Shown here: piece after piece, positions 6,340-19,704 of the stretch
Layout of the letters: each line of letters begins with the position of its first letter
Position numbering within the stretch: the stretch's first letter is position 1
IMG/VR virus record: IMGVR_UViG_3300042324_000153
Location: 1 to 22,836 of that record
Reading direction: 5' to 3' (one strand)
Length of the DNA: 22,836 nt
DNA from: a virus
Translations under genes and position numbers: made by a program
Notes under the pieces: model-generated
Database searches by the model: none
What the model saw: the letters and a program-made list of their open reading frames with translations, nothing else
Told to the model about the DNA's origin: nothing

Positions 6340-7440
6340 TTATATATTTGGCAAGTCATCATAGTTTAATGATTCACTCATTACACCTATAACGTAATTT
6401 GTTGATTCGGTTTCCTGCAATGCAGATTGTTTTTTACTTGTGTCACTATGTTTATTGAACCAAGGAATAGGTGTACTCTTTGGCGCAGGATTATTATATC
6501 GTATACCGATTTCTTTCAATGCTCCTACAGCAGTATAATCTACAAAGTCTTTTAACACAGTTGCATTCAATCCAATAACTGGTCCCAGTTTAAACAAATA
6601 GTCAGCCCAATCTTTTTCTTCTTTAATTACATCTAGGTAAAGTTGATATACTTCAGCTTCACATTCTGATTTTACTTGTGCAAATCTGCTATCTTCTTTT
6701 ACTACTTGATTAATAAGGTAAGCAGTCCAGCCTTTATGTAACAATTCATCTTGGAGAATTAAACTGATAATGTTACCATTACCAATAAAGATTTTGTTCT
6801 CAACCATTGCTAGACTTGTAGCAAATGATACCATAAAGCGGAATGCTTCTAATGCGTAACTAGCGTGTAATGCCATATAGATGGCTTTGATGTGTTCTTT
6901 TTCATTTACATCTATACCTAACTCTTTACGGCAATTAACTTGATGTAACTCATCATAATAAAGTCCAACACTACTTGCCATATCTACAATTTCTTTTGTG
7001 TCGTGGATAGTGTTGAATACATCTTTAGGCACATTGTAGATATTACGAATGATGTGACTATACGAACGACTATGGATGTTAGTCTCAAAGAAGCTCCAGT
7101 TATAGATCAATGCTTCTAGTTCGGGTAATGATACAACAGGAGTAAACACTTGACTTGGTGCTCGTCCTTGCAAACTATCTAATGCTGTTTGTCGTAATAG
7201 ATTACTAGTAAAGATATGCTTTACCGCATCGCTTGCATCTTTGAAATCATTGGCATCCTTGGTTAGAGAAATTTCTTCTGGAATCCAAAAGAAACCACGT
7301 GCCGTTGTTTCAAAGTCTGCAATCTTTTTATATTTCACCTCCTCAAACCTTTGAATGGTTACGGGACCTTCCGGGTCCAAAAACATTTTTCTATTCAAAT
7401 AATCTGTCTTAGTGTTTAGGTTGTATTGTTGTTTTGACAT
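6340..7440 (-). CDS. nrdB: Ribonucleotide reductase class Ia small subunit
   Basis: NrdB carries the di-iron centre and tyrosyl radical that start ribonucleotide reduction in NrdA. The 366-aa protein has the expected residues: Asp88 (ALDSLQGR), Glu119 and His123 (FFETNIHSRSY), radical Tyr127, Glu198 (YALEAFRF), and Glu232 and His235 (QDELLH). The C-terminus, YVIGVMSESLNYDDLPNI, resembles the NrdA-docking tail of E. coli NrdB. There is one oddity: between the first Glu and His ligands there are three residues, where E. coli has two (ETIH). The gene follows nrdA by 9 bases with AAGGAA before the start. It serves deoxynucleotide supply during phage replication. Confidence 0.97.
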   Translation of the reverse strand: MSKQQYNLNTKTDYLNRKMFLDPEGPVTIQRFEEVKYKKIADFETTARGFFWIPEEISLTKDANDFKDASDAVKHIFTSNLLRQTALDSLQGRAPSQVFTPVVSLPELEALIYNWSFFETNIHSRSYSHIIRNIYNVPKDVFNTIHDTKEIVDMASSVGLYYDELHQVNCRKELGIDVNEKEHIKAIYMALHASYALEAFRFMVSFATSLAMVENKIFIGNGNIISLILQDELLHKGWTAYLINQVVKEDSRFAQVKSECEAEVYQLYLDVIKEEKDWADYLFKLGPVIGLNATVLKDFVDYTAVGALKEIGIRYNNPAPKSTPIPWFNKHSDTSKKQSALQETESTNYVIGVMSESLNYDDLPNI

Positions 7441-7449
7441 TGTTTTTCC

Positions 7450-9771
7450 TTAAAGCTTGCAGGACAAGCAATCTTCCTCTTCATCCATATCATTAAAGCC
7501 GCTTGGCAAATCTAATACAGTTTCATCTTGACTCTTACTACCTGCTTTGTTAATCAAGCTATAGTAGAATGTTTTTAATCCCCACATATGTGCCTGCATC
7601 AAGTTCTTAGCAATCAATGTTGTTGGGACTTTACGTTCAGGGAAATGTGCTGGATTGTAGAAAGTATTAGTTGATATACTTTGATCCACATAGGCTGCAA
7701 TCACAGCCGCTGTCTTTAAGTAACCATCACAATCTTTTTGATCCCACATCAATTGATATTTGTTTTTTAACTTATGATATTCTGGAACAACTTGTACAAA
7801 ACTTCCTGCTTTACTTTCTTTTACACTAATTAAACTCATTGGCATTTCAATACCATTAGTAGAGTTAATTACTACTGAACTAGATTCTACAGGAGCTACA
7901 GCCATTTGTGTAGCATTACGGACACCATGACTACGCATCATAGCACGTAGTCCTTCCCAGTTTAATTCGGGTTCAAAGTTAGCTAATTCGTTAACACCTT
8001 TAGCTCTTAGTTCCCAGGGGAAGATACCTTGACCATATCTTGTTTTATCACTATGTTCACATCTACCGCGTTCCTGTGCTAGTTCTACACTTGCTTCAGT
8101 TAAGTAGAAGGATAAGTGTTCCATCCACGTCTTGACTTCAGCCAAGGAGTCTTTTTCTCCGTACTTAAGACTTCGCTTGGCGTGCCAGTAGGCAAGATTA
8201 GTAATTCCAATTCCAAGAGGTCTGATTTCATCGTTTGATAGTTTAGACTGAATGGATAGAAAGTCTTGATAGTCAAGAATGTTATTGAGGCTACGATGCA
8301 ATATGCGACAAGCACGGCGCATATCTTCTGGGTTACGGAACGCACCCCAATTGATACTGCCCAATGTGCAAAGAGCGATACGACCATCGCTGTCATCCAA
8401 ACGTTTAAAGGATTTAGTAGGTAAAAGAATTTCACAGCATAAATTACTCTGGTAAATTGTATGATATTCAGGATCAAATGGACCTTGATTCATAACGTTA
8501 TCAACGAACACTAAGTAGATACGTCCTGTATCTGTTCGTTCTTTTAATATGCCTGACTTGAATACTTCTTCAGCAGACATTGTTTTCTTTCTTAAGTCTT
8601 TACGTTTTTCATATTTTACGTATAGTTCTTCAAATAGTTCTGTGTTTTTGTAAAATGCTTCGTATAAATCAGGAACTTCATTGGGGTCAAAGAATGTTAT
8701 TTGTTCTTTGTTTTTAAATCGTCTCCAGAAGAATGCACTAAGCACAACCCCATAATCCATATGACGGACTCGGGTTTCTTCTGTTCCTTGATTGTTTTTA
8801 AGGACAATAAGATCATCAAACTGATGATGCCAAATAGGATAAAAAACAGTAGCACTTGCATTGCGGATACCTCCTTGTGAGCAACTTCTTAAATCACCGA
8901 ACCATTTCTTTAAGAACGGAATCATGCCGGTGTGCATAATTTCGCCACCGCGAATGGGTGATCCTAATGGTCGTAGTCTACCAATTTCGAGACCAATGCC
9001 AGCACGTTTGCTAGCATATTTTGCCATCATTTCACCAGAAGCAAAAATACTATCCAAGTCATCATCACTGCGAATAAGTACACACGAACTGAATTGTTTA
9101 GTAGGGGTGCCGAGACCAGCAAGGACGGGAGTAGCCAGAGTAAATAATCCATCACTTGCGGCATTATAATATTCCTTTATATAGCGCAGCCTTGCGTTGT
9201 TAGGTTCTTCTTTATGAAATACTGTTGCGGCTGCGATCATATATCTAACTTGTGGTGTTTCATATGTTTGTTTTGTTGAACGGTTGCGGACAAGATATTT
9301 TTCAATCAATTGTTCAATAGCGGCATAACTATATTGTTCATCCTTAGAGTGGTCAAGCAGGTCATCCATTTTGTTCCAATCTTCTTCAGTATACCATTCT
9401 AGTAACTCCGGTGTATATAAACCAGTAGCTACATTAGTTGTTACAATATTATAAAGACTGGGAGGTGAATAATCCCCATAAACATCTTTACGTAACATAG
9501 ACAGACGTTGTTTACCTGCTACATATTGATAATTTGTATGTCCTACATCTGGATTATTTTCTACGTCAATCAAGTCAACTACAGCACGTAGAGTAATTTC
9601 GTCAATTTGTCTGGTTGAAATCCCATCATAGAAGTGTAGTTGTGATTTTATTTCTACCATTGACGGGCTAACATCTGCTATCCCTACACATATTTTTGCC
9701 ACTTGTGCTTGCCATTTTTCTAACATTAATGGCTCTTTTGTCCCATCTCGTTTGGTGACGTGTATTTTCAT
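7450..9771 (-). CDS. nrdA: Ribonucleotide reductase class Ia large subunit
   Basis: NrdA is the catalytic subunit reducing ribonucleoside diphosphates to deoxy forms. At 773 aa it is full length (E. coli 761). The N-terminus (about 1-95) is an ATP-cone (VTKRDGTKEPLMLEKW). Catalytic residues are present: Cys230 (FSSCVLI) and Cys468 (IALCTLGSINW) as the redox pair, Asn443-Leu-Cys445-Cys-Glu447 as the radical site, the tyrosine pair in KTFYYSL for radical transfer, and a C-terminal CLSCKL (Cys768, Cys771) that accepts electrons from glutaredoxin. No intron or intein interrupts it, although phage nrd genes are frequent homing targets. It lies 3 bases after the 145-aa gene. No promoter of its own is visible, so it may be read through from the glycan genes. 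Confidence 0.98.
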   Translation of the reverse strand: MKIHVTKRDGTKEPLMLEKWQAQVAKICVGIADVSPSMVEIKSQLHFYDGISTRQIDEITLRAVVDLIDVENNPDVGHTNYQYVAGKQRLSMLRKDVYGDYSPPSLYNIVTTNVATGLYTPELLEWYTEEDWNKMDDLLDHSKDEQYSYAAIEQLIEKYLVRNRSTKQTYETPQVRYMIAAATVFHKEEPNNARLRYIKEYYNAASDGLFTLATPVLAGLGTPTKQFSSCVLIRSDDDLDSIFASGEMMAKYASKRAGIGLEIGRLRPLGSPIRGGEIMHTGMIPFLKKWFGDLRSCSQGGIRNASATVFYPIWHHQFDDLIVLKNNQGTEETRVRHMDYGVVLSAFFWRRFKNKEQITFFDPNEVPDLYEAFYKNTELFEELYVKYEKRKDLRKKTMSAEEVFKSGILKERTDTGRIYLVFVDNVMNQGPFDPEYHTIYQSNLCCEILLPTKSFKRLDDSDGRIALCTLGSINWGAFRNPEDMRRACRILHRSLNNILDYQDFLSIQSKLSNDEIRPLGIGITNLAYWHAKRSLKYGEKDSLAEVKTWMEHLSFYLTEASVELAQERGRCEHSDKTRYGQGIFPWELRAKGVNELANFEPELNWEGLRAMMRSHGVRNATQMAVAPVESSSVVINSTNGIEMPMSLISVKESKAGSFVQVVPEYHKLKNKYQLMWDQKDCDGYLKTAAVIAAYVDQSISTNTFYNPAHFPERKVPTTLIAKNLMQAHMWGLKTFYYSLINKAGSKSQDETVLDLPSGFNDMDEEEDCLSCKL

Positions 9772-9774
9772 TTT

Positions 9775-10212
9775 TTACCCTATATTCTTATTAATTGTTG
9801 TTATATCTAACTTGCGTACTATTTTAAAATCTTTTAGATTATTACTTATCACCGTATCTGGCCAGTAATTCAGTATATATTTTGCGTTGTCAACCAAGAC
9901 TAATGATATGTCATCGCCCTGTACATCCGTTGCTAATACAAATTCTATATCAGAAATATCCATTAACAGTAGAGTATAACACATTCCTAGACCCCTTGCA
10001 AGTGTACAGTAGGTGTTTTCTACCAAAAGATCCCAAGGACCGGGCCACTCACTGACTTCATTTGGGTGAAGATGATAGTTAATTAATGGTGCATTTTGCC
10101 ACCATTTATCTACTTCTACACATTGTTGAGATAAATCAAGATTTTTGATTTTATTGCGTAATTTGTACCAGCTTTGTAATCTATTGTCATAAGACGATTG
10201 AAATATATTCAT
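9775..10212 (-). CDS. Conserved phage protein of unknown function (145 aa)
   Basis: A 145-aa soluble protein, Trp-rich at the N-terminus (RLQSWYKLRNKI, VDKWWQNAPL). It then has YHLHPNEVSEWPGPWDLL and NTYCTLARGLGMCYTLLLM. The His, Cys and Asp residues spaced along it (LHP, YC, GMCYT, FVLATD) recall a cysteine-protease or transglutaminase-like arrangement, but that is only suggestive. I have an impression of similar proteins near nrd genes in T4-like aquatic phages; no family name comes to mind. It ends 3 bases before nrdA. A small hairpin lies directly before its start codon and no clear Shine-Dalgarno is seen, so translation may be controlled by structure or coupling to hldD. Confidence 0.65.
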   Translation of the reverse strand: MNIFQSSYDNRLQSWYKLRNKIKNLDLSQQCVEVDKWWQNAPLINYHLHPNEVSEWPGPWDLLVENTYCTLARGLGMCYTLLLMDISDIEFVLATDVQGDDISLVLVDNAKYILNYWPDTVISNNLKDFKIVRKLDITTINKNIG

Positions 10213-10213
10213 T

Positions 10214-10229
10214 AGATAACTACTTATCT
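10214..10229 (-). promoter_or_regulatory. Small hairpin just before the 145-aa gene start
   Basis: A perfect 6-bp inverted repeat (AGATAA and TTATCT around a 4-base loop) spans the hldD stop codon and ends one base before the ATG of the 145-aa gene. In mRNA it would cover the ribosome-binding region. It is short and AT-rich, so stability is modest. Confidence 0.3.
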
Positions 10230-11000
10230 TTTTTCAATATTAGCTAACGTTTTCCTTGTTTTAGTCATATCAGCACACGTATACTTCTGATAACTAGCTT
10301 TCAATATCTCCGGCATAGGAATCTCTACTACTTTTACATTAAATGTGTTTGCTACATCTAAAAAGCTAATAGGTTTCCCACTACCTATATTAAATATACC
10401 TGATTCTTTAATATTTAAAAACTGTAAATGCGTATCTATCACTTCTTCTACCGGTACAAAATCTCTTTTATGATCTGCACTATTCTCAAATACACGTATT
10501 TCACCTGTTTTTGATTGTTCATAAAACTGAAAGAATGGACTTGCTTGCTTATCTTTGTGTTCTTCGCCTACACCATTAGATGCGTATACATTGAAATATC
10601 TAAATCCTTGTACTATACTGCCTGTAGGATGTTTCTCTACATATCTTTCAAACAAATACTTGCTCCAAGCGTATGGATTTCTTGGATCTACAGGTGCTGT
10701 TTCACTAAAATCAGTCCCTAATCCATACACGCTTGCACTACTAGAATATTGCATATTAACTCCAAACGTCTTACATTCTTCATATAAGTCTATGCTAAAC
10801 TCTGTATTCTGTCTAAGTATCTTATCTATATCACGCTCAGTGGTGCTACTGATTCCTCCCATATGAATGACCCATTCGAATTCCATTACGCTAGGTCTAA
10901 TTCCATCTGACCATTCAAATGTCGTAACATCGTGTTCTTTTAGTGCTTTAAGCATATAACTGCCAATAAAGCCGTTGTGTCCAGTTAATAGTATTTTCAT
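10224..11000 (-). CDS. hldD: ADP-heptose 6-epimerase-like NAD(P)-dependent epimerase
   Basis: A 258-aa short-chain extended dehydratase/epimerase closest in motifs to HldD (RfaD), which converts ADP-D-glycero-D-manno-heptose to the L-glycero form. The nucleotide site is LTGHNGFIGS (residues 5-14). SSTTERD near 51-57 matches the HldD-specific segment. Tyr110 and Lys114 form the catalytic YxxxK (NPYAWSKYLFERYV). GFRYFNVYA, HKRDFV (the second HldD lysine), SGIFNIGSG and YQKYTCADMTK all follow in HldD order. It is about 50 residues shorter than E. coli HldD (310), mainly from compact loops and a short C-terminus. It overlaps the HAD gene by ATGA and completes the heptose module. A related NDP-sugar epimerase activity cannot be ruled out. 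Confidence 0.85.
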   Translation of the reverse strand: MKILLTGHNGFIGSYMLKALKEHDVTTFEWSDGIRPSVMEFEWVIHMGGISSTTERDIDKILRQNTEFSIDLYEECKTFGVNMQYSSSASVYGLGTDFSETAPVDPRNPYAWSKYLFERYVEKHPTGSIVQGFRYFNVYASNGVGEEHKDKQASPFFQFYEQSKTGEIRVFENSADHKRDFVPVEEVIDTHLQFLNIKESGIFNIGSGKPISFLDVANTFNVKVVEIPMPEILKASYQKYTCADMTKTRKTLANIEKR

Positions 11001-11290
11001 CTAAAATATGTACCTACATTAAAAGCTTTATCATCTATCCACATATCATATGCAGGTTTACCTACCTCAGCCGTAGTATACTTAACACCCCAATCATTCA
11101 ATTGTTTAAGTGTAAGTTCAAGCCAATTCTTACCTGTATTACTGCCACGTGCTGTCCAATAATGTATCTCGTTGCCTGCGTCATATAACTTATTAAAATG
11201 TTCTATACGTGATAGATACGGTTCTGCGTTTGCATAATCTCCATTAGTTGTAGTACAAATAGTACCATCAATATCTACTATAATTTTCAT
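10997..11290 (-). CDS. Small HAD-family phosphatase of polysaccharide clusters
   Basis: A 97-aa minimal HAD hydrolase without a cap domain. The nucleophile motif is IVDIDGTIC (Asp6, Asp8). WTARGSNTGKNW holds motif II, a lysine follows in VGKPAYDMW, and WIDDKAF is the acidic motif IV. Such short HADs occur in capsule and LPS clusters, where substrates are phosphorylated sugars. Inside the heptose module it could dephosphorylate heptose 1,7-bisphosphate, the step normally done by GmhB. However, it is half that size and lacks the zinc cysteines of GmhB, so this is inference. It overlaps both neighbours by ATGA (cupin upstream, hldD downstream), a sign of strict coupling. Confidence 0.8.
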   Translation of the reverse strand: MKIIVDIDGTICTTTNGDYANAEPYLSRIEHFNKLYDAGNEIHYWTARGSNTGKNWLELTLKQLNDWGVKYTTAEVGKPAYDMWIDDKAFNVGTYFR

Positions 11291-11643
11291 TTCTGACTGT
11301 CTCCCGGTAATACTCTATAGTTATCTTCTACACTATCAGGTGTACTAACTTCAATAATAGTACCTTCTTCTAAGCATATAACCTGATGAGGTTGAAGTGG
11401 TCTATTGCGCCATACTTCACCCTCTTTTAATGTAACATCGTGTAAGCTAGCATCTTGCGTTTCAATGAATTTAATCATAAATAATCCACTTAATATATAC
11501 CAACTTTCATCCTTTTCAGCGTGAAAATGCATACTGAATTTTGCACCCTTATTGAATTTCAATAACTTGCCGCAATACTTATCAGTAGTAGCCCATATCA
11601 ATTCGTGGCCCCAACCTTTTTCTACAAATCCTTCAAGTCGCAT
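11287..11643 (-). CDS. Cupin, probable sugar-phosphate isomerase or regulator
   Basis: A 118-aa single-domain cupin. The opening EGFVEKGWGHELIWATTDKY and CGKLLKF are followed by the metal-binding motif HFHAEKDESWYILSG (two His and Glu), then GEVWRNRPLQPHQVICLEEG with the second conserved histidine. It resembles the C-terminal cupin of type II phosphomannose isomerases and small cupins found in LPS and heptose clusters. Its placement between the HldE kinase half and the HAD gene suggests action on a phosphorylated sugar of this pathway. The exact reaction is unknown; it may replace the missing GmhA isomerase step or act on another sugar. Overlap with the kinase gene is 11 bases and with the HAD gene ATGA. 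Confidence 0.8.
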   Translation of the reverse strand: MRLEGFVEKGWGHELIWATTDKYCGKLLKFNKGAKFSMHFHAEKDESWYILSGLFMIKFIETQDASLHDVTLKEGEVWRNRPLQPHQVICLEEGTIIEVSTPDSVEDNYRVLPGDSQK

Positions 11644-12388
11644 TTATTTCCTCCAATGTAGGTGCGTATACACCAACGTGTTGCACTGTAATAGAACTAG
11701 CTCTGATGGCAAACTCTATTGCTTGTTCCATATCGTCTGCTACTAAGTAGCCATATGTTAACGCTGATAAGAAGGTGTCCCCCGCTCCACAAACATCAAA
11801 CACATCTACTTTAGGTACACTAAATGTTTTATTATTATATGATACCCCGCTACTACCACGTGTTAATACCATATTAGAACAATCACTAATTCTACTAGAA
11901 TATTCTGTTTCGTTAATCTTTACAATGCAACCTTCAAATAGTTTTAAATCACGTTTCTTGGTATCAACAAAGATAGGACCTTCATACTGTTGTCTAATAC
12001 CCTTAATAAAATCTTCTGTGACAAATCCTTTAGCATAATCAGATATAACTACAGCATCACTACCTTCTAGAAATTTCATTACATAATCTAAATTGCAGGG
12101 ATTAGACTTTACATCATCATCTATACGCATTAAATGTTGCTTAGACTTTGCATCTATTAAACGTTTCTTTTTAGATGGGTCTCCCAAGAATGAGGTGACA
12201 TTTAGTCCCAATGCTAATAGATTTTCTTTAACATTACTTCCCATACCTGATTTAGTTTCAGTGTGTTTAGGAACAAAAACAGGTACAGGAGCTTCAGGGC
12301 TCATTCTATCTACTGTACCATATTGATATTCATCAATGCAGGTGTCGCCTATTAATATAATTTTCAATTGTCTTTGTGGTTGATTCAT
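11633..12388 (-). CDS. HldE N-domain-like heptose-7-phosphate kinase (PfkB family)
   Basis: A 251-aa PfkB/ribokinase-family sugar kinase matching the kinase half of HldE (RfaE), which phosphorylates D-glycero-D-manno-heptose 7-phosphate at C1. HldE signatures are clear: GDTCIDEYQYG, then RMSPEAPVPVF (residues 28-38), GMGSNVKENLLALG in place of the usual GGAANVA motif, VVISDYAKGFV, and the anion-hole/catalytic motif VCGAGDTFLSAL (GAGD at 201-204). About 30 residues present after the LVG strand in E. coli are missing, giving a compact form. It overlaps the adenylyltransferase gene by 56 bases in another frame; a weak AGGG precedes the ATG. A later TTG start at codon 8 is possible. Together with the adenylyltransferase gene it rebuilds a split HldE. 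Confidence 0.85.
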   Translation of the reverse strand: MNQPQRQLKIILIGDTCIDEYQYGTVDRMSPEAPVPVFVPKHTETKSGMGSNVKENLLALGLNVTSFLGDPSKKKRLIDAKSKQHLMRIDDDVKSNPCNLDYVMKFLEGSDAVVISDYAKGFVTEDFIKGIRQQYEGPIFVDTKKRDLKLFEGCIVKINETEYSSRISDCSNMVLTRGSSGVSYNNKTFSVPKVDVFDVCGAGDTFLSALTYGYLVADDMEQAIEFAIRASSITVQHVGVYAPTLEEINAT

Positions 12389-12740
12389 CTATTACCCTAT
12401 CAAAGAATACTAATTCCTCAGCATACTCCGAACCTATTACTTTTTTATTCTTCCAATCACTTCCGACTATCATAATGTTCGGCTTGTATTGTTCAATGAT
12501 ACTCTCTAACTCAAAATCAGTATTGAATACTAATACCTTATCTACTGCTTTTAAATTACTGAGTAATGCTACCCTATTATCTATTTTGTTGAATGGTCTA
12601 TCACTACCTTTTTTCTCGGTTACACGATTATCAGAATCAATTGCAACCAATAGATATGTGCCTAAACTCTTTGCATAGTTTAATAAGTCTAAATGACCCA
12701 TATGTAATATATCAAACGTTCCATTAACAAAAACTTTCAT
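12333..12740 (-). CDS. HldE C-domain-like heptose-1-phosphate adenylyltransferase
   Basis: A 135-aa cytidylyltransferase-fold enzyme corresponding to the second half of HldE, which transfers AMP from ATP to heptose 1-phosphate to make ADP-heptose. Motifs in order: VNGTFDILHMGHLDLL (the HxGH nucleotide site), VAIDSDNRVTEKKGSDRPFN, then IVGSDWKNKKVIGSE, and ESTTKTIENYI, which matches the STTxxI end motif. Length equals the E. coli domain. In most bacteria both HldE halves are fused, kinase first; here they are separate genes in the opposite order, with a 56-base overlap. Glycerol-3-phosphate cytidylyltransferase is a related alternative, but the RPFN and heptose neighbours favour HldE. It begins 30 bases after glf with only a weak ribosome site. 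Confidence 0.85.
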   Translation of the reverse strand: MKVFVNGTFDILHMGHLDLLNYAKSLGTYLLVAIDSDNRVTEKKGSDRPFNKIDNRVALLSNLKAVDKVLVFNTDFELESIIEQYKPNIMIVGSDWKNKKVIGSEYAEELVFFDRVIDESTTKTIENYINRRHLH

Positions 12741-12770
12741 ACACTATTCTAACATAACCTGTAGTAAATA

Positions 12771-13775
12771 TCAAGCTTTTTGTTCCAAAAATTGATGGGC
12801 AGTTTCTAATGATGAACTAATAGCCATATGCATATCAATATACACATACATTCCACAACGTCCAATAAACGTATTTTTTGTATTTTCGATAGCTTTATAC
12901 TTCTTATATAACTCTCTATATGTATCAATTGGATAATAACGTTCATTATTATTGTCTTTATAATCACAAGGTTCTTCAAATGTTAATGTTGTATTACCCG
13001 TATTAATATTATTGGGTAGTTTATTCCATTCAGTCATTCTGGTAAACGAACCATTATCAGTAAAATTAACTACGGTAGTAGGTAACATACTGGGTGAGGG
13101 AAACGTTATTGAATGAAATTTAATAGACCTATATGGTAATTCCCCGTATATGAAATCATAATATACATCTATGGGCATAGAATTAAAGATATGATCATAA
13201 TTATCTTCCATACTCTTATCAAACATCGTATTCAACTTAACGGTAATGTTTGGATGATTTAATATATTAGTGAATAATGTCGTATATCCGTGTGTCGGTA
13301 GATATTGATATTCATCTCTAAAATATCTACTGTCGTCATTATCTCTAGTACTAACTCGATTTAATACGTCTTTGCTTAGTGTTTTATAATGTTCTCCCCA
13401 CATCTTTTTACTGTAGGGTTCAAAAAATGTATTGTTTATATCTTCTTTTTTTACTGTTTCTAATGTGATTGTGTTAACCGGAAACGGTACATATTTGCCA
13501 CTTTCCAGTAACGCCAACACGTGATGTTCATAGAATGTCCACTCGGTAAATTTACTAACCCAATCAAATACTTTTTTGTTACTAGTATGAAAGATATGCG
13601 GTCCATATTTATGAATGCGTAATCCGTGTTCATTGATATAGTCATATGCATTACCACCAATATGGTCTCTATTATCAATAACTATTACGTTGTAATTGTT
13701 TTCTGCAAGTTCTCTCGCTACTACACTACCAGCAAAGCCTGCCCCTACTATTAAGATATTTTGTTTTGTTCCCAT
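12771..13775 (-). CDS. glf: UDP-galactopyranose mutase
   Basis: A 334-aa flavoenzyme that interconverts UDP-galactopyranose and UDP-galactofuranose, the donor of Galf in surface glycans. The FAD-binding start ILIVGAGFAGSVVARELA is followed by IDNRDHIGGNAYD, the mutase-specific HKYGPHIFHT (about residues 55-64), VPFPVNTITL, and near the end NERYYPIDT and FIGRCGMYVYIDM. These are diagnostic of the family. It is somewhat shorter than E. coli Glf (367). The ATG at 13775 has GGAAGA at good spacing and overlaps the GT2 gene by 25 bases, so the GT2 enzyme may use UDP-Galf or work in the same glycan. The following gene starts the heptose module. Confidence 0.95.
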   Translation of the reverse strand: MGTKQNILIVGAGFAGSVVARELAENNYNVIVIDNRDHIGGNAYDYINEHGLRIHKYGPHIFHTSNKKVFDWVSKFTEWTFYEHHVLALLESGKYVPFPVNTITLETVKKEDINNTFFEPYSKKMWGEHYKTLSKDVLNRVSTRDNDDSRYFRDEYQYLPTHGYTTLFTNILNHPNITVKLNTMFDKSMEDNYDHIFNSMPIDVYYDFIYGELPYRSIKFHSITFPSPSMLPTTVVNFTDNGSFTRMTEWNKLPNNINTGNTTLTFEEPCDYKDNNNERYYPIDTYRELYKKYKAIENTKNTFIGRCGMYVYIDMHMAISSSLETAHQFLEQKA

Positions 13776-14551
13776 AATTCTTCCAAATCTTTTACATAAA
13801 AAGATATATCTTTAGCTTCCCCTAAATGAATAGCTAAAGTTTTCATAGGCATCATCATCCTAACTTCAGGTTGTTGCCATACTTTACTTATTGTGTTACC
13901 TTCCCAATAGCCTTCTATTGTGCCGATATCCAATAAACTATAAAATTCTTCTTTATATTTTTTAAATAAATTTACTGGTATTAAAAATGATTCGTGTGTA
14001 AACCAAGTATTTCTATAATATCTATCTGGTCCTGGTATAACCATACAGGGATAAACATATGTTCCGTTGAAGGGATTCTGTGGATGATAGTATAGTTGAT
14101 TAAAATCTTGAGGAAAAATACATATAGTTAACTCAGGACTAATAGATTCTAAATAGTTTCTTGCATCTATCATTGTAGCAATACTATTTGGATAATGCAA
14201 ATAGTCATCTTCTACTAGATAAACAAGTTCATCGTCCGGTAACTGACTAATGTAGTCTAATGCAATCTTTAAACTATATCTAGATTTTTGTTTAATATCT
14301 TTAAATTCAATTGTTGGATCAACTACTACATCTTGTATTGTAGCATTAGCAAAATGGTTATGTAAGAACTGTTTAGTCTCAATGGAAGAATCATCATCAA
14401 TTACGTGTAAACTAAAAGGGTTATTATAATTAGTTAATGACGTTACTAGTGAGTTATAACATCTTTTTACACATTCGTCTTTTGGCACAATGCGATTACT
14501 TGCCAATGAGGCTTTATCACAGGTCCTTAATACCACATTTAGTTTTTGCAT
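13751..14551 (-). CDS. GT2-like glycosyltransferase
   Basis: A 266-aa GT-A fold glycosyltransferase of family 2 type. I choose the ATG at 14551, which overlaps the stop of a 28-aa upstream ORF (TAATG); an open TTG start 24 bases earlier lacks support. It starts MQKLNVVLRTCDKASLAS, then NPFSLHVIDDDSS for the donor nucleotide. ELVYLVEDDYLHYPNS (about 130-145 counting from the chosen start) holds the metal-binding acidic triad. CMVIPGPDRYYRNTWFTHES and EGYWEGNTISKVW form the acceptor side. No membrane segment is visible. Overlap with glf by 25 bases suggests cooperation, possibly Galf transfer, but donor and acceptor cannot be read from the sequence. The late promoter at 14654 is the nearest upstream promoter. 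Confidence 0.8.
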   Translation of the reverse strand: MQKLNVVLRTCDKASLASNRIVPKDECVKRCYNSLVTSLTNYNNPFSLHVIDDDSSIETKQFLHNHFANATIQDVVVDPTIEFKDIKQKSRYSLKIALDYISQLPDDELVYLVEDDYLHYPNSIATMIDARNYLESISPELTICIFPQDFNQLYYHPQNPFNGTYVYPCMVIPGPDRYYRNTWFTHESFLIPVNLFKKYKEEFYSLLDIGTIEGYWEGNTISKVWQQPEVRMMMPMKTLAIHLGEAKDISFYVKDLEELWEQNKIS

Positions 14552-14637
14552 TACTTCAAGCCTAAACTCTTGCAAATATGTGCTAGATGGATTTTGTCCG
14601 AGCTCGGTAAGCCCGTAATAAGAATACGTGGTGTCAT
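14551..14637 (-). CDS. 28-aa remnant of a P-loop nucleotide kinase
   Basis: A 28-codon ORF with ATG at 14637 and a good AGGAAA ribosome site. It reads MTPRILITGLPSSDKIHLAH and then ICKSLGLK before TAA. The first half is the start of a P-loop kinase such as adenylylsulfate kinase or a related small kinase (normally ILITGLPGSGKTTLA). The second glycine of the Walker A is Asp and the Thr/Ser is Ile, so it could not bind nucleotide normally, and nearly the whole domain is missing. Its stop overlaps the GT2 start (TAATG). It may now serve only as a leader that couples translation to the GT2 gene. A decayed gene is the simplest view; identity to a specific kinase is uncertain. Confidence 0.6.
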   Translation of the reverse strand: MTPRILITGLPSSDKIHLAHICKSLGLK

Positions 14638-14653
14638 ACTATTTCCTGTAAAA

Positions 14654-14661
14654 TATTTATA
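14654..14661 (-). promoter_or_regulatory. T4-type late promoter core TATAAATA
   Basis: An exact TATAAATA on the minus strand, 17 bases before the ATG of the 28-aa remnant. It lies in a gap of about 50 bases and points into the GT2-glf-heptose run. In T4 this octamer, read by the gp55 sigma factor, is sufficient for late transcription. Confidence 0.7.
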
Positions 14662-14685
14662 ATAGAGACAGTATAACCATTTATT

Positions 14686-15105
14686 TTACATCAAAGCGTC
14701 TACTTCTTCATGTGTCGTAGCGGCTTCAATTTGAGCTATTTTTGCTAATAATGTTTCTTTGGCAGCACTAACCAAACTAGTATCAAATTCTTCTGCAGGA
14801 TTAGCACTCAGTTGTAGTTGTATTTGTTGGTAAACAACCTGCTGAAATAATCCATTAGCTTGTCCGATTAACGAACCTTTGCGTTCATCTATTTCTAAAT
14901 CACGTTTACCCCAAATAATTTCAACTGGACTTTTACTAAGATCAAATGTGTGTGTGGTCATTATTTCACGATTTTGTATTAGATCAGGGATTATTTCAAC
15001 TGCTTCATTCCAACCATCTTGACCTGCAGGTGGTGCGGAGTCCCAGCAGTCTGTTACTGAATTATCTATTACCCTTACCCAATATCCTGTTTTAATTGTA
15101 CTCAT
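14686..15105 (-). CDS. Conserved phage protein (139 aa), possibly tail-fibre associated
   Basis: A 139-aa protein with two parts. The first (STIKTGYWVRVIDNSVTDCW, then PPAGQDGWNEAVEIIPDL) is beta-rich with many aromatics. The second (WGKRDLEIDERKGSLIGQAN, then long helices rich in Gln, Ala and Glu ending HEEVDALM) looks like a coiled or helical bundle. This beta-head/helical-tail layout is seen in tail-fibre assembly chaperones and small fibre proteins, but I recognise no named family. It has its own late promoter (15126) and a good AAGGAAC ribosome site, and stands alone between two glycosyltransferase operons. Late expression and layout favour a virion-related or assembly role rather than sugar metabolism. 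Confidence 0.65.
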   Translation of the reverse strand: MSTIKTGYWVRVIDNSVTDCWDSAPPAGQDGWNEAVEIIPDLIQNREIMTTHTFDLSKSPVEIIWGKRDLEIDERKGSLIGQANGLFQQVVYQQIQLQLSANPAEEFDTSLVSAAKETLLAKIAQIEAATTHEEVDALM

Positions 15106-15125
15106 TTTAAATGTTCCTTATATTA

Positions 15126-15133
15126 TATTTATA
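15126..15133 (-). promoter_or_regulatory. T4-type late promoter core TATAAATA
   Basis: Exact TATAAATA on the minus strand in the 62-base gap between the GT2 gene and the 139-aa gene, about 20 bases before that gene's ATG. The rest of the gap is AT-rich and shows no clear terminator hairpin. Confidence 0.7.
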
Positions 15134-15167
15134 TTAACTTTTCTTGTTTTTTTGTATAACTAAAATA

Positions 15168-15992
15168 TCAGTTAGGTGGATTTTTTCCTAAAGTTTCTAA
15201 TAATTTTGATTTCAATAATATGTCTAATGGTACATTCTGATAGATGTAAGTTAATATGCCGCGTACCTGTGTATATCTTTCATCTTTGTGAGTGTGATTG
15301 ATAAACACTATCCCGCAAGTAACATAGTTTTCTAAATCTTCTATTTTATAATAATGCGCCAACAAGTACCATAAAGTCCAACAGTTAGTTGGATTGCTTT
15401 CAAACTCATCTTTTAACATTTTTATATACAATTCAGGGCGAGATTGTTTTTTAAAATCTTGGTCATGTATTAGATAGATATTTTCATTATATATTTCAAC
15501 TTCATATCTATCTTTGTGCTTAAACCAAAGATGTTCATAGATAGGTTGTGCCCAAGTATAATCGTGTCTACGATGTATTTTGTTTGTACCTAAAAAGTTA
15601 GGAGGACCTACTCTAACATTTTCTGTATATAAATCTAATCTATCACACGATATGTTAGTAACAGTAGGATTAGCTTCCATTGTGTTTTTCATTTCAGCTA
15701 ACACATTGATACTGAAATATTCATCTAGATCCGGACTTAAACACCAATCTACGTCAGTAGGAATCATATCTAAGTTGTAGTTACGTGCTACATTAAATAT
15801 CCATGGGGTGAATATCTTTTGCTCAATAATCAGATTAGGATCGACCTTTGCAGCCTCTTGAAACATTTCCCAAGTCCCGTCAGTTGAACCGGTATCAAGT
15901 ATCACTCTATATGTAAATTTTTTGGTATAGTATAACCACTTCTCTACGTATTGAAGTTCATTTTTACAGATTGTATATGCTGCCGTTTTCAT
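15168..15992 (-). CDS. GT2 glycosyltransferase (WaaE-like)
   Basis: A 274-aa family 2 glycosyltransferase. It begins MKTAAYTICKNELQYVEKWL, followed by VILDTGSTDGTWEMF, the classical donor-site motif of LPS-type GT2 enzymes such as WaaE. WIFNVARNYNLD and then DVDWCLSPDLDEYFS carry the DxD-like metal site (about residue 92). The C-terminal part (ELYIKMLKDEFESNP, CWTLWYLLAHYYKIEDLENY) is helical and reads like one or two TPR-type repeats. It is the last gene of the five-gene operon and starts with an ATGA overlap with the methyltransferase before it. The acceptor is unknown; a heptose or hexose of a phage-directed glycan is likely from context. Confidence 0.85.
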   Translation of the reverse strand: MKTAAYTICKNELQYVEKWLYYTKKFTYRVILDTGSTDGTWEMFQEAAKVDPNLIIEQKIFTPWIFNVARNYNLDMIPTDVDWCLSPDLDEYFSINVLAEMKNTMEANPTVTNISCDRLDLYTENVRVGPPNFLGTNKIHRRHDYTWAQPIYEHLWFKHKDRYEVEIYNENIYLIHDQDFKKQSRPELYIKMLKDEFESNPTNCWTLWYLLAHYYKIEDLENYVTCGIVFINHTHKDERYTQVRGILTYIYQNVPLDILLKSKLLETLGKNPPN

Positions 15993-16594
15993 TCTTGTGT
16001 CTTAATAAATGATGTCTGTGATCCGTCTGGAATATTCAATATGTTTAACTTATGCCAATTGCATTGTATAAACATCTCCACTGCCATTCGCACACTCATC
16101 TGTGCTGATTGTGTGCCATTTTTGTCGGTATAACGCCAAGTAGTGGTATCGTCACATAAAATAACTCCACCTACACGTAGTATTTTCCAAGCTAATACCA
16201 AGTCTGTTAATACTTCGCTTGCTTTGTGATCTCCGTCAATATATATAAACTCTGCGTTGACGTTGTTATTAATCAAATCAATTAGTCCATCTGTACTATG
16301 TTTTTGTATATAAGTTACATTGTTATTTTTATTGAACCCAAGATTATCTAAGAAGTTTTGTTTTACAATATTAAAATCCTCGCTCATATCATTACTACCA
16401 ATATGCGGGTCTATTGCATATATTTTCAGGTTAGGATTATACGGTGTAAGTTGGTCACTCATCCAAAATGTTGTAGAGCCTTCAAACACACCAATTTCTA
16501 CAATTGTATTTGGTACTCCGTATGTGTTTACTAAGTGACCAACATTAGTCATTGCACCCTTACCACAATTAAAATCCATGCTAAATTTGTACAT
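15989..16594 (-). CDS. SAM-dependent methyltransferase (Methyltransf_24-like)
   Basis: A 201-aa class I methyltransferase of the type found in polysaccharide and antibiotic clusters. The SAM site is TIVEIGVFEGSTTFWMSD (about 30-47), then KIYAIDPHIGSND. AEFIYIDGDHKASEVLTDL (about 115-133) and VGGVILCDDTTTWRY form the metal/active region typical of Methyltransf_24 and CmcI-like enzymes. It is slightly short. The start overlaps the preceding gene's stop (TAATG), and its end overlaps the GT2 gene (ATGA). It probably O-methylates a sugar of the same glycan. Protein or small-molecule substrates cannot be excluded. Confidence 0.85.
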   Translation of the reverse strand: MYKFSMDFNCGKGAMTNVGHLVNTYGVPNTIVEIGVFEGSTTFWMSDQLTPYNPNLKIYAIDPHIGSNDMSEDFNIVKQNFLDNLGFNKNNNVTYIQKHSTDGLIDLINNNVNAEFIYIDGDHKASEVLTDLVLAWKILRVGGVILCDDTTTWRYTDKNGTQSAQMSVRMAVEMFIQCNWHKLNILNIPDGSQTSFIKTQE

Positions 16595-17199
16595 TATTGC
16601 TTTCTATATATAACTATATTCTTCTCAGGATTGATATAGGGTGTTTCTTTTACTTTAGTTAAGAGTTTCTCTATTGCAGTAAACACATTGAAGTAGTCAT
16701 TATCCCAGATAACAAAGCCCTTAGAGTCTACATCACTGGGTATGAATCTGTTATCTTCATTTATTAAAACTAAGTAACCGTTTGGTTTTAGCGTATTGAC
16801 TATCTTTTCTATCTCTTGTTGTGGGTTCTCTACGTGTTGTAATACAAATACCGCTAAACATACATCTACTGAATTTTCATCGGGTAGTTGTGATATTATT
16901 TTAAACTTCCTTGGGTTAGAAACATATAGGGTAGCAAAAGTTTTCATACTTTCACTGATATCAAAACCCAATACAGAGCAATCAAACTTAGTAATTAGTT
17001 CTTTACTAACACGACCCATACCACAACCAAAGTCTAATACAGTTGATTGATTAGTAATAATGTTTTCATTATATATTGTATCAACTAAGAAATGTGTTTC
17101 TTTGTGGAACTTTTCTGGTTTATCAGATTCAAAGCTGAGAACCACATTCATTGCCTGAGTGATTGTGGTTACATCAAATGCTTCTTTAACATATCTCAT
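16594..17199 (-). CDS. SAM-dependent methyltransferase (Methyltransf_11/25-like)
   Basis: A 201-aa class I methyltransferase. After a helical N-terminus (EAFDVTTITQAMNVVLSFES) come STVLDFGCGMGRVSKELI (motif I, about 52-69), VLGFDISESMKTFA (acidic loop), SVDVCLAVFVLQHVENPQQE (motif IV/post) and LKPNGYLVLINEDNRF. The form is common in small-molecule and sugar methylation. It starts within the stop of the GT25 gene (ATGA) and shares a base with the next methyltransferase, so two methyltransferases of different families are made side by side. They probably act on different hydroxyls of the glycan. The substrate is not readable from sequence. Confidence 0.85.
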   Translation of the reverse strand: MRYVKEAFDVTTITQAMNVVLSFESDKPEKFHKETHFLVDTIYNENIITNQSTVLDFGCGMGRVSKELITKFDCSVLGFDISESMKTFATLYVSNPRKFKIISQLPDENSVDVCLAVFVLQHVENPQQEIEKIVNTLKPNGYLVLINEDNRFIPSDVDSKGFVIWDNDYFNVFTAIEKLLTKVKETPYINPEKNIVIYRKQ

Positions 17200-17915
17200 G
17201 TTTTAAGTTTATCGTTACGTTCCGTAGTTCTACCGGTTAATGGTCTAGCTAGAATTGTAGTGTCAGTAGTTACGTTTATGTTTTTATCATAAGCGAACAT
17301 ACCTTGATGTGTAATATTAAACAAGTCTGCTCTCATCATAATATCTAACGGAGCACATATACCCATTTTTAATACGTGCGAGATTAAGTTCTTTGCCATT
17401 AATGGGTCTAATGCATATGCGTGGGCACGACAGATAAACAGATAATTAGGTCCTTCACTAGCGTGAGGTGGTATAGTTGGATGTATTTTCCATCCTTGCT
17501 CTGCCCACTCAGCACCGCCTAGGTAACATATTGAGTTAACTGAATCATATGAAGTAAACTTCTTAGTCATAATGCTATCGTGTTCTAAGATAACAATAGG
17601 CTTATCAATCTTGGCGCAATGAACCCACAGGCTGATGTGACTTAATGCACAAGCAACTTCACCTCTAGTTAAGTAATGGTCTGTAATCTTTAGCATTTTG
17701 ATTACTGAATCACCTACGCTGTGGTCAGGTACTGTAATTTCAGAGCCAATGCCGTTGAAGGCATCCCATACTTTATATTGCATACCTACATTCATACAAC
17801 TGAGTTGGCATCGTTTAGAATACCGTTCAGATGATTCATTACCTTTTACAGTAATGATGTAAGCGTGTTCTACTTCAAAATCACGTTTATAGAATAAATT
17901 AAGATTTGTGTCCAT
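17196..17915 (-). CDS. GT25-like glycosyltransferase
   Basis: A 239-aa glycosyltransferase resembling family 25 (LPS beta-galactosyl/glucosyltransferases such as LgtB). Residues 17-35 read HAYIITVKGNESSERYSK, the family's opening strand, then VWDAFNGIGSE. The core TRGEVACALSHISLWVHC (83-100) followed by DKPIVILEHDSIM has the acidic site at Glu111-His-Asp113, where family members carry LEDD. C-terminal parts (RAHAYALDPLMAKNLI and LDIMMRADLF) match the usual order. It overlaps the fusion gene by 17 bases and the following methyltransferase by ATGA. The single His in the acidic motif is unusual but not clearly inactivating. Donor and acceptor are unknown. Confidence 0.82.
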   Translation of the reverse strand: MDTNLNLFYKRDFEVEHAYIITVKGNESSERYSKRCQLSCMNVGMQYKVWDAFNGIGSEITVPDHSVGDSVIKMLKITDHYLTRGEVACALSHISLWVHCAKIDKPIVILEHDSIMTKKFTSYDSVNSICYLGGAEWAEQGWKIHPTIPPHASEGPNYLFICRAHAYALDPLMAKNLISHVLKMGICAPLDIMMRADLFNITHQGMFAYDKNINVTTDTTILARPLTGRTTERNDKLKT

Positions 17916-19620
17916 CTAATGCCCGTTTAAATTCACTGTAGTCAATACGACCAGGTTTGTGTACTTGAATTAACATTCTAGTTGATAATGCTACATTATT
18001 CAAGTGATTTAGGGCATGAGTAAGTTCTTCTTGCGTTATTTTGCCATTAGATAGACGTTGTTGATATGGATCAGTATACTCAAACTGAGTATCACATACT
18101 TCGATATCAATATCTTCTTCAAATGCTAGTAATGAATCACTTTCACCTTTATTTGCTTTTTCAAACATATGACGTTTGTTAAACAAGTTAAACATAGCAA
18201 CAGTAATCAATCGTTTATGTGTTGGGTCATCTAATGCAGTATCACAGCGCCAATGTGGAGTTTGTATTTCCCAAACAGCACCATTCTCACTTACACGATA
18301 TAGTTCTTTAATAACATCAATGAAGTCTCTACCAGTTTCTCCTAGATGTTCTAATATATCTTTAGCTACAACGTGTGAGTATTCGTTGTCTTTCCATGGC
18401 CAAGGTAGAACACTTAAATCAACCTGTTCATCGGCATCAATGAATGGTGATTTATCAACGTTAACAAATCCATCAAATTTCTTAAAGCCACAACCCAAGT
18501 TAAGTTTCTTAGTGACACGATCCTCATTTGGTTGATCGATATGTTTTAAGTTGAAACGTGCTTCTAGTGCAGTGTAAAGACTTTGGAATGTTGGGTCCCA
18601 TTTCTTTGGATCTGTTTGTCTAAAGATTTGTACACATTTGTAGTATGGGCTTGTGTTAGCATCAGGTGAGCCTGGTGTCCACGTATGATACGGGAGTATA
18701 GGAACGATGACCCATGTTTCTTTACCCATTGCGGCTGCTAAGTGTGCTACACTTGTACAAGATGAGATAACGATATCCATATTAGCAATAGCTGCCATTG
18801 TATCTTCCCAGCTTAACAAGAAGTGTTGCAAGTCAGTTACATTTTCAGGTAGTTGAATAATGTTATGATCCTTTTGCAAACTATATACCTGTAGTTCATC
18901 ATATTTTGCTAAGTTAGTGATAAAGTTCTCTGGAAACTTTCTAAATTGTTGATGTTCAAATTTAGGATTGCCTGCCCAACGAATACCAACTTTAATTTTT
19001 TCGCTGTTGACGAATGTTTTCCAAATTTCAATACTATCAGCTTTAGCAGTTAGATAAGGATCGTTTGGAAAGTTTGAGAATTCGTGACCAGCTACCCATC
19101 CGGCACTAAATCCAGGAACCCAATAATCATGAGGTACAGTATGTGATTGATTTCGTAGTATAACTTTATCTACACCTTCAATACGTTCAAATACTGATAC
19201 TAGTTCAGGTGCACAAGCGATGTATACTGATTTTGCACCTTGTTTTTTAAAGCTAGTAGCAAAACGTGCGTGAATGATTTCATCTCCGTACCCACCTTCT
19301 AGTGATACAATAATAGATTTATCGTTGATAGAATGTTTTTCTGGGTTAAAAATAGGTGCATCTGTTTTAAGAGGAGGGCTACCGTATACATTTAAGAAGC
19401 GACCATTCTCTAATAGTTGACAGCCTTTTCTATAGTCACCGTCTTGAATCATAAACCAACCACGGTTAAAGCAATGACGCATCCAAATATCTTCTGTATT
19501 TTGTCCTTTAGCGTCTACTATTTTTTCAGGGCCTATGTTTTCTAATTTATCTGATAATATTCTGGCTTCTAGATGTTTACCTTCTAATTGAAGCTTGAGC
19601 ATCATATCTATTTCGTGCAT
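17899..19620 (-). CDS. GT9-like glycosyltransferase fused to a SAM methyltransferase
   Basis: A 573-aa two-enzyme fusion. Residues 1-95 are helical, TPR-like (EDIWMRHCFNRGWFMIQDGD). Residues about 100-355 form a GT-B glycosyltransferase like family 9 and related TPR-linked enzymes: SLEGGYGDEIIHARF (donor loop), VGIRWAGNPKFEHQQFRKFP, and DIVISSCTSVAHLAAAMGK (about 282-300), then WVIVPILPYHTWTPGS and an RQTDP end. Residues about 370-573 are a class I methyltransferase (KLNLGCGFKKFDGFVNVDKS, then HVVAKDILEHLGE). Family 9 includes heptosyltransferases using ADP-heptose, which fits the downstream heptose genes. The start has GGAGAA and follows a late promoter. It is the first gene after the RCC1 repeat gene and overlaps the GT25 gene by 17 bases. 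Alternative donors remain open. Confidence 0.85.
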   Translation of the reverse strand: MHEIDMMLKLQLEGKHLEARILSDKLENIGPEKIVDAKGQNTEDIWMRHCFNRGWFMIQDGDYRKGCQLLENGRFLNVYGSPPLKTDAPIFNPEKHSINDKSIIVSLEGGYGDEIIHARFATSFKKQGAKSVYIACAPELVSVFERIEGVDKVILRNQSHTVPHDYWVPGFSAGWVAGHEFSNFPNDPYLTAKADSIEIWKTFVNSEKIKVGIRWAGNPKFEHQQFRKFPENFITNLAKYDELQVYSLQKDHNIIQLPENVTDLQHFLLSWEDTMAAIANMDIVISSCTSVAHLAAAMGKETWVIVPILPYHTWTPGSPDANTSPYYKCVQIFRQTDPKKWDPTFQSLYTALEARFNLKHIDQPNEDRVTKKLNLGCGFKKFDGFVNVDKSPFIDADEQVDLSVLPWPWKDNEYSHVVAKDILEHLGETGRDFIDVIKELYRVSENGAVWEIQTPHWRCDTALDDPTHKRLITVAMFNLFNKRHMFEKANKGESDSLLAFEEDIDIEVCDTQFEYTDPYQQRLSNGKITQEELTHALNHLNNVALSTRMLIQVHKPGRIDYSEFKRALDGHKS

Positions 19621-19645
19621 ATTTTCTCCGTTATGTGTTGTGTTG

Positions 19646-19689
19646 GTTTTTTGTATATAAAACTGTAAAGTTATTTATATACAAAAAAC
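19646..19689. repeat. Perfect 15-bp inverted repeat around a late promoter
   Basis: On the plus strand, GTTTTTTGTATATAA (19646-19660) and TTATATACAAAAAAC (19675-19689) are exact reverse complements separated by 14 bases. It fills most of the gap between the RCC1 gene stop and the fusion gene start, and overlaps the late promoter. In RNA it could fold as an AT-rich stem, perhaps ending RCC1 transcription or capping the next mRNA; as DNA it could be a protein-binding palindrome. Confidence 0.8.
19672..19679 (-). promoter_or_regulatory. T4-type late promoter core TATAAATA
   Basis: Exact TATAAATA on the minus strand, about 52 bases upstream of the fusion gene ATG and 26 bases beyond the RCC1 stop codon. 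It lies across the loop and right arm of the inverted repeat, so hairpin or cruciform formation would affect it. It would drive the five-gene glycan operon. Confidence 0.7.
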
Positions 19690-19704
19690 GAAATTAATTA
19701 ATTT

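Follow-up and report, generated by a model that had tools for sequence, protein, structure and literature searches.

The closest described relatives of the locus reported here are the heptose genes of cyanophages: P-SSM2, S-CAM1 and their relatives carry a five-gene cassette (T4-GC 304-308) encoding a nucleotidyltransferase (NTase), a kinase, a HAD phosphatase, a cupin and an epimerase, and cyanophage lipopolysaccharide (LPS) genes in general are well known (PMC9602691). Also pertinent are the TibC/AAH autotransporter heptosyltransferases, which put heptose on the protein of a neighbouring gene (PMC4358343), and FlmG, a glycosyltransferase that binds flagellin via its N-terminal domain (PMC7591256). 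We have analysed a window of 22,836 bases, the entire IMG/VR record IMGVR_UViG_3300042324_000153, for which no DNA near-matches to annotated phages were found and in which the minus strand carries all genes taken as real. It contains the same five genes at 10224-12740, but unlike the cyanophage cassettes these are joined to genes for UDP-galactopyranose mutase (UGM), glycosyltransferases and methyltransferases, and to a 573-residue protein, here called the hub, with a predicted GT9-like fold and a methyltransferase domain. The kinase, adenylyltransferase and epimerase families are shared with the GmhA/HldE/GmhB/HldD pathway, whereas a SIS-type GmhA was not found in the window, which has a cupin instead, and the phosphatase is a small EcbF-like HAD protein rather than GmhB.

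The explanation we favour, with a probability of roughly 0.6, is that the window contains a glycan island of swappable content, placed at the fibre-gene, late end of a T4-like phage genome, with a cassette that would make ADP-heptose without GmhA, and with an acceptor that would be made at virion assembly. The cupin would take the first step, from sedoheptulose-7-phosphate to heptose-7-phosphate, and the HldE-I kinase, HAD phosphatase, HldE-II adenylyltransferase and HldD epimerase would take the later ones; UGM would provide UDP-galactofuranose (UDP-Galf); and the hub and the other transferases would use these donors, with methylation, on the virion-assembly acceptor, most likely the adjacent RCC1-repeat protein. 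All of the enzymes may contribute to one shared glycan. What is new here is the anatomy of the RCC1 and hub genes and, above all, the case for the cupin replacing GmhA.

The named enzymes were tested against Pfam, PHROGs and NCBIfam profiles, in family scans that covered 20 of the 26 window proteins with Pfam and PHROGs and the remaining six with NCBIfam only. The cassette genes are as follows.

12333 to 12740, minus strand: HldE domain II-like adenylyltransferase (the NTase); TIGR02199 110 bits, cut-off 181.5
11633 to 12388, minus strand: HldE domain I-like heptose-7-phosphate kinase, short form; TIGR02198 137 bits, cut-off 345
11287 to 11643, minus strand: cupin, proposed sedoheptulose-7-phosphate isomerase; cupin match 25.6 bits, cut-off 27.2
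10997 to 11290, minus strand: small HAD phosphatase, EcbF-like, proposed 7-phosphatase replacing GmhB; TIGR01689 36 bits, cut-off 162
10224 to 11000, minus strand: HldD-like ADP-heptose 6-epimerase; TIGR02197 199 bits, cut-off 274.6

HldE-I, HldE-II and HldD are in each case the top NCBIfam family, in agreement with the original prediction, with scores under the equivalog cut-offs, as would be expected of divergent phage forms; the profile searches returned the right families at mostly modest scores. The NTase scores only 69 bits as a TagD-type enzyme and the epimerase 70 bits as GalE, and an 18-row phage profile of the kinase has the heptose 7-phosphate kinase 4e84 as its best PDB match (E 2e-44). 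The expected cupin and HAD phosphatase are both there, the cupin just below its cut-off and the HAD protein matching the EcbF-BcbF type and not GmhB; their PHROG labels ('phosphoheptose isomerase' for the HAD protein, 'cysteine dioxygenase' for the cupin), and the labels derived from these, look wrong. Counting against ADP as the nucleotide, the best PDB sequence matches of the NTase are named cytidylyltransferases, so that ADP is not certain. Families and synteny support the predicted supply of ADP-heptose and UDP-Galf well, and it is highly probable that the five-gene cassette makes ADP-heptose.

The original prediction called nucleotide-sugar synthesis of this completeness unusual in a phage, which does not hold for the five-gene set itself: all five genes are present in P-SSM2, S-CAM1, S-SM2 and P-TIM68, and S-T4 has four of them, with no HldD match. 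The NTases of P-SSM2 and S-CAM1 are 42-54% and the kinases 42-44% identical in protein sequence to those of the window, and tail-fibre genes lie close by; they have the gene order NTase-kinase-HAD-cupin and carry the epimerase on the opposite strand, whereas the window has all five on one strand, and in S-SM2, unlike the window, the cassette genes are spread among others. Adjoining the heptose genes of S-SM2 (locus L002, 5725-6933) and P-TIM68 (locus L005, 7317-8462) is a gene annotated as transketolase-like; transketolase can produce sedoheptulose-7-phosphate. The window kinase matches 35 phage records. Cyanophages and marine single-cell viruses account for 31 of these, each of which has the cupin too; the remaining four are a faecal phage, a Salmonella genome record and two large uncultured phages. 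The cupin occurs in 35 records, four of them without a kinase match at that sensitivity (the lists contain many duplicates). The psbA gene is present in five of six annotated isolates and was found in none of the 31 IMG/VR contigs of this group, which are often fragments. Literature searches gave nothing relevant on ADP-heptose in cyanophages or on cyanophage fibre glycosylation.

Relatives of the hub give a second view of the cassette. In a viral-contig scan with the 573-residue protein the best 80 of 116 relatives were taken, which with one further locus (L013) make 81 hub loci, excluding L007-L012, which are near-identical to the window; at one per 95% identity these reduce to 53 nonredundant loci. 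Sixteen of the 53 carry cassette genes, and with kinase and NTase counted as separate domains the NTase and the cupin are present in all 16, the kinase in 15, the epimerase in 14 and the HAD gene in nine. The cupin is as constant as the kinase and the NTase, and a mere accessory role for it is unlikely; a point on the other side is L091, which has cupin, NTase, HAD and epimerase genes and no kinase match. L041 and L046 keep NTase, kinase and cupin only, neither locus matching HldD or HAD; their product would be the D,D form of the heptose donor, which is the form used by TibC (PMC4358343). Seven loci (L032, L056, L057, L063, L068, L071 and L077) have a fused kinase-NTase HldE-like protein of 384-393 residues, whose gene lies on the strand opposite to the hub.

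The GmhA-type domain PF13580 was found in none of 37 phage records (six annotated phages and the 31 IMG/VR contigs, fragments in many cases), of which 24 have the cupin and 23 both cupin and kinase; the same search was positive in nine of 14 control genomes. With the cupin as isomerase, the cassette would cover the whole route from sedoheptulose-7-phosphate to ADP-heptose. The original prediction had missed both the GmhA gap and the cupin as its likely stand-in.

Cellular genomes show a corresponding pattern. From a search with the cupin profile the best 80 of 84 stretches were taken, and in several of them the cupin lies near HldD-, HldE- and HAD-like genes; three cupin contigs (L111, L112 and L114) seem to be phage DNA in cellular bins, given their high identity to phage cassettes and their gene order. 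An archaeon (genome G051, locus L160) has the operon cupin-HldD-kinase-GmhB-NTase, with each step but GmhA. Because genomes found through the cupin are a biased sample, we retested the exclusion of cupin and GmhA on draws selected by HldD and by kinase; genomes were requested at at least 70% completeness, and the tables carry no completeness values. In the archaeal phylum of G051, which includes Woesearchaeota-titled genomes, 36 of the 279 genomes searched are HldD-positive (at least 212 bits, next score 173), and all 36 have a kinase at E 1e-40 or better. Eleven of these have the cupin (at least 100 bits, next 45), and a strong GmhA match (at least 180 bits; the next scores are 166 in a control and 117 among the HldD-positives) occurs in none of the 11 and in all 25 of the remainder; among 36 HldD-negative controls it occurs once. 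The Fisher p value is 1.7e-9, or 5.8e-7 counting weak SIS matches and 1.9e-8 without G051 and G041, which were first met via the cupin, although kinship is not taken into account in this or the following Fisher tests, and the score gaps had been seen when the bit thresholds were set, both of which count against the strength of the exclusion. In eight of the 11 the cupin and the kinase share a frame or lie no more than about 1 kb apart.

The second draw came from the phylum of G054, a Nomurabacteria genome, which we take to be Patescibacteria, and was selected by kinase, present in 16 of 379 genomes. The cupin (at least 98 bits; next scores 77, then 49) is in seven of these and GmhA (at least 183 bits) in 10, such that six have the cupin only, nine GmhA only, one both and none neither. 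In the genome with both (G545) GmhA is beside the kinase and the cupin is on a different contig. Fisher p is 9e-4, or 5e-3 without G054 and G035, both first met via the cupin; four GmhA-type genomes have faint cupin matches of 37-49 bits. A single Neomarinimicrobiota genome has two similar cupin-type heptose operons (L096 and L097), and elsewhere carries a GmhA-like gene as well as a kinase that exceeds the cut-off.

Both proteins are also found fused to the kinase. The kinase (PfkB) and the cupin share a frame in G088 (443 residues) and G237 (354 residues, at a contig edge), and the kinase and GmhA (SIS) share one in G125 and G146 (510 and 526 residues). In G088 and G146 the next gene encodes an NTase-HAD fusion, and in G237 its sequence resembles one; in G125 it encodes a 183-residue protein with a GmhB-like motif. 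In the Patescibacteria, search tables alone place cupin and kinase side by side with equal frame length in four genomes (G628, G496, G518 and G546), and kinase and GmhA likewise in G454. Phage and archaeal cupins have in common K-x-W-G-x-E, C-x-K, H-x-H-x-x-K-x-E and further single positions. The putative metal ligands are H39, H41, E46 and H86 in window numbering. Aldose-ketose isomerases are known among proteins of the cupin's fold, and in Pfam the G051 cupin matches phosphomannose isomerase (29.9 bits, cut-off 23.6) and D-lyxose isomerase (24.4 bits, cut-off 20.8), for both of which the window cupin falls below cut-off. Because cupin and GmhA exclude one another and each is fused to the kinase, the cupin appears to fill the slot of GmhA, an aldose-ketose isomerase, and we think it probable that it is a sedoheptulose-7-phosphate isomerase replacing GmhA. 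A search of a full-text library with few subscription papers gave none that, judged by title or opening of the abstract, links a cupin to sedoheptulose-7-phosphate isomerase, GmhA or ADP-heptose.

The remainder of the island and its surroundings comprise the following features.

19705 to 22836, minus strand: RCC1-repeat protein; RCC1 PF00415 452 bits, 5' end beyond the window
19672 to 19679, minus strand: TATAAATA late-promoter-like site, 51 nt upstream of the hub gene
17899 to 19620, minus strand: hub, 573 residues; helical N-terminus, GT9 at about 94-359, S-adenosylmethionine (SAM) methyltransferase at about 368-558
17196 to 17915, minus strand: GT25-family glycosyltransferase; PF01755 50.6 bits, above cut-off
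16594 to 17199, minus strand: methyltransferase, Methyltransf_11 type; 59.8 bits, above cut-off
15989 to 16594, minus strand: methyltransferase, Methyltransf_24 type; 62.8 bits, above cut-off
15168 to 15992, minus strand: GT2-type glycosyltransferase; PF13704 28 bits, barely above cut-off; phrog_13126 E 5e-32
15126 to 15133, minus strand: late-promoter-like site, same 8-mer, 20 nt upstream of the 139-residue open reading frame (ORF)
14686 to 15105, minus strand: 139-residue protein, matching no family in the library scans (Pfam, PHROGs, NCBIfam)
14654 to 14661, minus strand: late-promoter-like site, same 8-mer, 78 nt upstream of the listed gene start at 14575
13751 to 14575, minus strand: GT2-like glycosyltransferase, weak; PF00535 14.8 bits, below cut-off
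12771 to 13775, minus strand: UGM; PF03275 167 bits, cut-off 26.3
9775 to 10212, minus strand: uncharacterised 145-residue ORF, accompanying NrdA in related loci

Most of the enzymes named in the original prediction are thus present. The three methyltransferase domains (one of them within the hub) and UGM stand, the latter also with a TIGR00031 score of 279 bits, under its cut-off of 303.75; among the four glycosyltransferases proposed, GT25 and one GT2 hold by sequence and the GT9 by predicted fold, but the second GT2 is unconfirmed. The boundary placed at 9775 has to be moved: the 145-residue ORF travels with NrdA in related phage loci, even in those without the heptose cassette, so that it falls outside the finding and the glycan genes start at about 10224. 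Further along, in the nrd block, a PAAR-type protein at 5497-5790 (38 bits, below cut-off) is a possible tail-spike tip, and NrdA itself has Xanthomonas and Stenotrophomonas phages at 54-58.5% among the matches listed (15 of at least 5000).

By sequence the hub is a poor GT9 match, with only 13.4 bits in Pfam and no GT9 match in a PDB profile search, and we accept its GT9 identity because the predicted structure is GT9-like. In comparisons made with the AlphaFold2 model (46 phage rows, mean pLDDT 91), eight GT9 entries lead the list for residues 94-359 at Z 16.1-18.0, including V. parvula GT9 3tov (18.0), WaaF (17.5), TibC (16.5) and WaaC (16.3), followed by a plant NDH-PSI complex chain (15.1) and UDP-GlcNAc 2-epimerase (11.4); residues 368-558 match SAM methyltransferases at Z up to 12.8. 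The model is that of a GT9 (heptosyltransferase) fold, as predicted, joined to a methyltransferase. Since TibC and WaaC score about the same and WaaF roughly one unit more, the fold cannot separate an LPS from a protein acceptor. A TibC-like assignment was considered and rejected, as the hub lacks both the N-terminal beta-barrel and a conserved four-cysteine iron finger (across the 46 rows C288 alone is invariant, and C377 occurs in 42). The hub also differs in its added methyltransferase domain; a neighbouring gene's protein as acceptor is for the hub only a proposal. FlmG has a helical N-terminus and a GT-B-type domain in common with the hub (PMC7591256), but the N-terminus of the hub (five helices at residues 3-75 in the model) is much shorter and has no TPR match in Pfam, the methyltransferase is fused, and another donor would be expected. 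FlmG is a precedent that an N-terminal acceptor-binding arrangement can work, not proof for the hub. On the favoured reading the hub donor would be ADP-heptose; weighing against this, 37 of the 53 hub loci are without any cassette gene, so that the hub may use another sugar or ADP-heptose of the host.

The genes that follow the hub are exchanged between phages. Downstream of it, according to the phage, are GT25, GT2, methyltransferase or UGM genes, the heptose cassette, or none of these, and beyond the swapped genes are ribonucleotide reductase genes (NrdA in 21 of the 53 loci) or elsewhere a gp13/gp14-like block (names taken from the S-CAM1 annotation). Two similar contigs, L051 and L017, are without just the cassette, whose flanks there lie 16 bases apart and are 70% and 80% identical to the window; in L013 the cassette has 83% DNA identity over 2.9 kb and is set among other genes, in a locus that has none of the window's glycosyltransferase, methyltransferase and UGM genes except for a distant hub. 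The heptose cassette moves as one module. Upstream the arrangement is far more constant, and in 41 of the 47 nonredundant loci with at least 600 bases upstream of the hub an RCC1-repeat gene is directly upstream on the same strand. There are six exceptions. In L079 and L013 a second hub-like ORF intervenes and RCC1 is more distant, separated in L013 by a further two genes; in L028 a small gene of 166 residues lies between RCC1 and hub; in L075 an epimerase precedes the hub and RCC1 is elsewhere in the locus; and L061 and L090 have no RCC1 match within the locus. Synechococcus phage BUCT-ZZ01, an isolated relative, carries a hub with RCC1-like neighbours. The RCC1-repeat protein has a weak match to a phage 'tail' family (phrog_20500, 39 bits) and, its virion role being suggested by its neighbours, is a candidate for a fibre-like virion protein and acceptor.

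Where the glycan goes is the question on which readings differ most, and the timing of expression bears on it. There are exactly three TATAAATA sites in the window, all on the coding strand, which fits the three late-promoter units of the original prediction. In number they are fewer than the 6.0 expected on average by chance, but their placement is not what chance would give. The gaps that hold them (14576-14685, 110 bases; 15106-15167, 62 bases; 19621-19704, 84 bases) are the largest within or beside 9775-19620; 8-mers fit into non-coding gaps at 3.1% of positions, and three of three sites there would have a probability of about 3e-5 if independent. Within the 53 nonredundant loci the motif precedes 10 of 16 gp13-like ORFs, nine of 62 hub ORFs (split ones included) and one of 16 GT2-like ORFs; it precedes both homologues of the 139-residue gene (the window type and L051), and none of the kinase, cupin, HAD, epimerase, 145-residue, NrdA and NrdB ORFs counted in related loci. 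From the sequences, late units beginning at these sites are plausible, as is expression together with virion genes, which was the earlier interpretation. Against it, the third unit continues into the 145-residue gene and then nrdA, with gaps of 11 and 3 bases; because of this, and with terminator-like sites at chance level (six against 5.2 expected in 7000-20000), late timing is not settled. Directly after the 14654 site an ATG opens about 20 codons (14575-14637) resembling the start of a 264-residue P-loop kinase/nucleotidyltransferase-like protein that is intact in L051, L017 and L013, and this stretch looks like the remnant of a deleted gene.

That the glycan ends up on the virion is accordingly put forward tentatively, at odds a little short of even. 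The leading alternative places it on the host envelope, on LPS or capsule, where it would block rival phages or alter the cell surface, and this is a real possibility that we nonetheless lean against. GT25, GT2, UGM and heptose genes are characteristic of clusters for LPS and capsule, the GT9 fold ties with the LPS heptosyltransferases WaaF and WaaC, and an envelope role is the usual reading of cyanophage LPS genes (PMC9602691). The late-type promoter sites, the RCC1 neighbour and the gp13/gp14-like genes adjoining many related loci fit virion assembly better, however, and the scanned window proteins yielded no flippase, ligase or polymerase.

A second alternative concerns the cupin, which might act later, as a nucleotide-sugar ketoisomerase or epimerase, with host GmhA supplying heptose-7-phosphate. 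Several observations tell against an isomerase role and in part favour such a function. The nearest fold is the CapF cupin domain (Z 16.0), which acts on a nucleotide sugar, followed by phosphomannose isomerases (14.8), quercetinase (14.6) and seed vicilin (14.5); the fold fits many enzymes, non-isomerases included, and the fold search could not pick an activity. Phages may rely on their hosts, and in the 26 genomes chosen via cupin loci a GmhA-like match above 90 bits is present in 11, and in five of the 14 that have a kinase above cut-off. Weaker SIS matches are also seen in two of the 11 cupin-positive archaea (117 and 87.5 bits), a 90-bit GmhA-like match in one cupin-only Patescibacteria genome, and a weak SIS domain (51 bits) near the cupin cassette of L152. 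Moreover, cupin and kinase are not adjacent in three of the 11 archaea (G139, G164 and G094), and the cupin occurs in three of the 36 HldD-negative controls, in two of the three alongside a weak HldE-like kinase. A later-acting cupin would, however, leave the exclusion of cupin and GmhA and both kinase fusions in cells unexplained, and we regard it as unlikely. That the enzymes modify phage DNA, putting sugar on modified bases, is very improbable: phage glycosyltransferases often target DNA (PMC12619734) and one methyltransferase (15989-16594) has 'DNA methyltransferase' as its top PHROG label (30 bits), but the same protein is Methyltransf_24 in Pfam at 63 bits, no base-modifying synthase was recognised among the scanned window proteins, and UGM, HldD and GT9 point toward glycans.

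The favoured explanation, a swappable island with a GmhA-free cassette and a virion-assembly acceptor, has implications at several levels. In its fullest form it would be a self-sufficient phage ADP-heptose pathway begun by a new cupin-type isomerase, shared with DPANN archaea and Patescibacteria, with the hub heptosylating the phage's own RCC1-repeat fibre; as a joint claim this is improbable. The isomerase label in public phage genomes is apparently on the wrong gene, the HAD gene instead of the cupin. Should the cupin be the isomerase, a central envelope pathway would gain an enzyme class, sedoheptulose-7-phosphate would be all that such phages require of the host, and the incomplete-looking heptose pathways of DPANN archaea and Patescibacteria would become complete. 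The role of sugar genes in aquatic T4-like phages, an old question, becomes testable.

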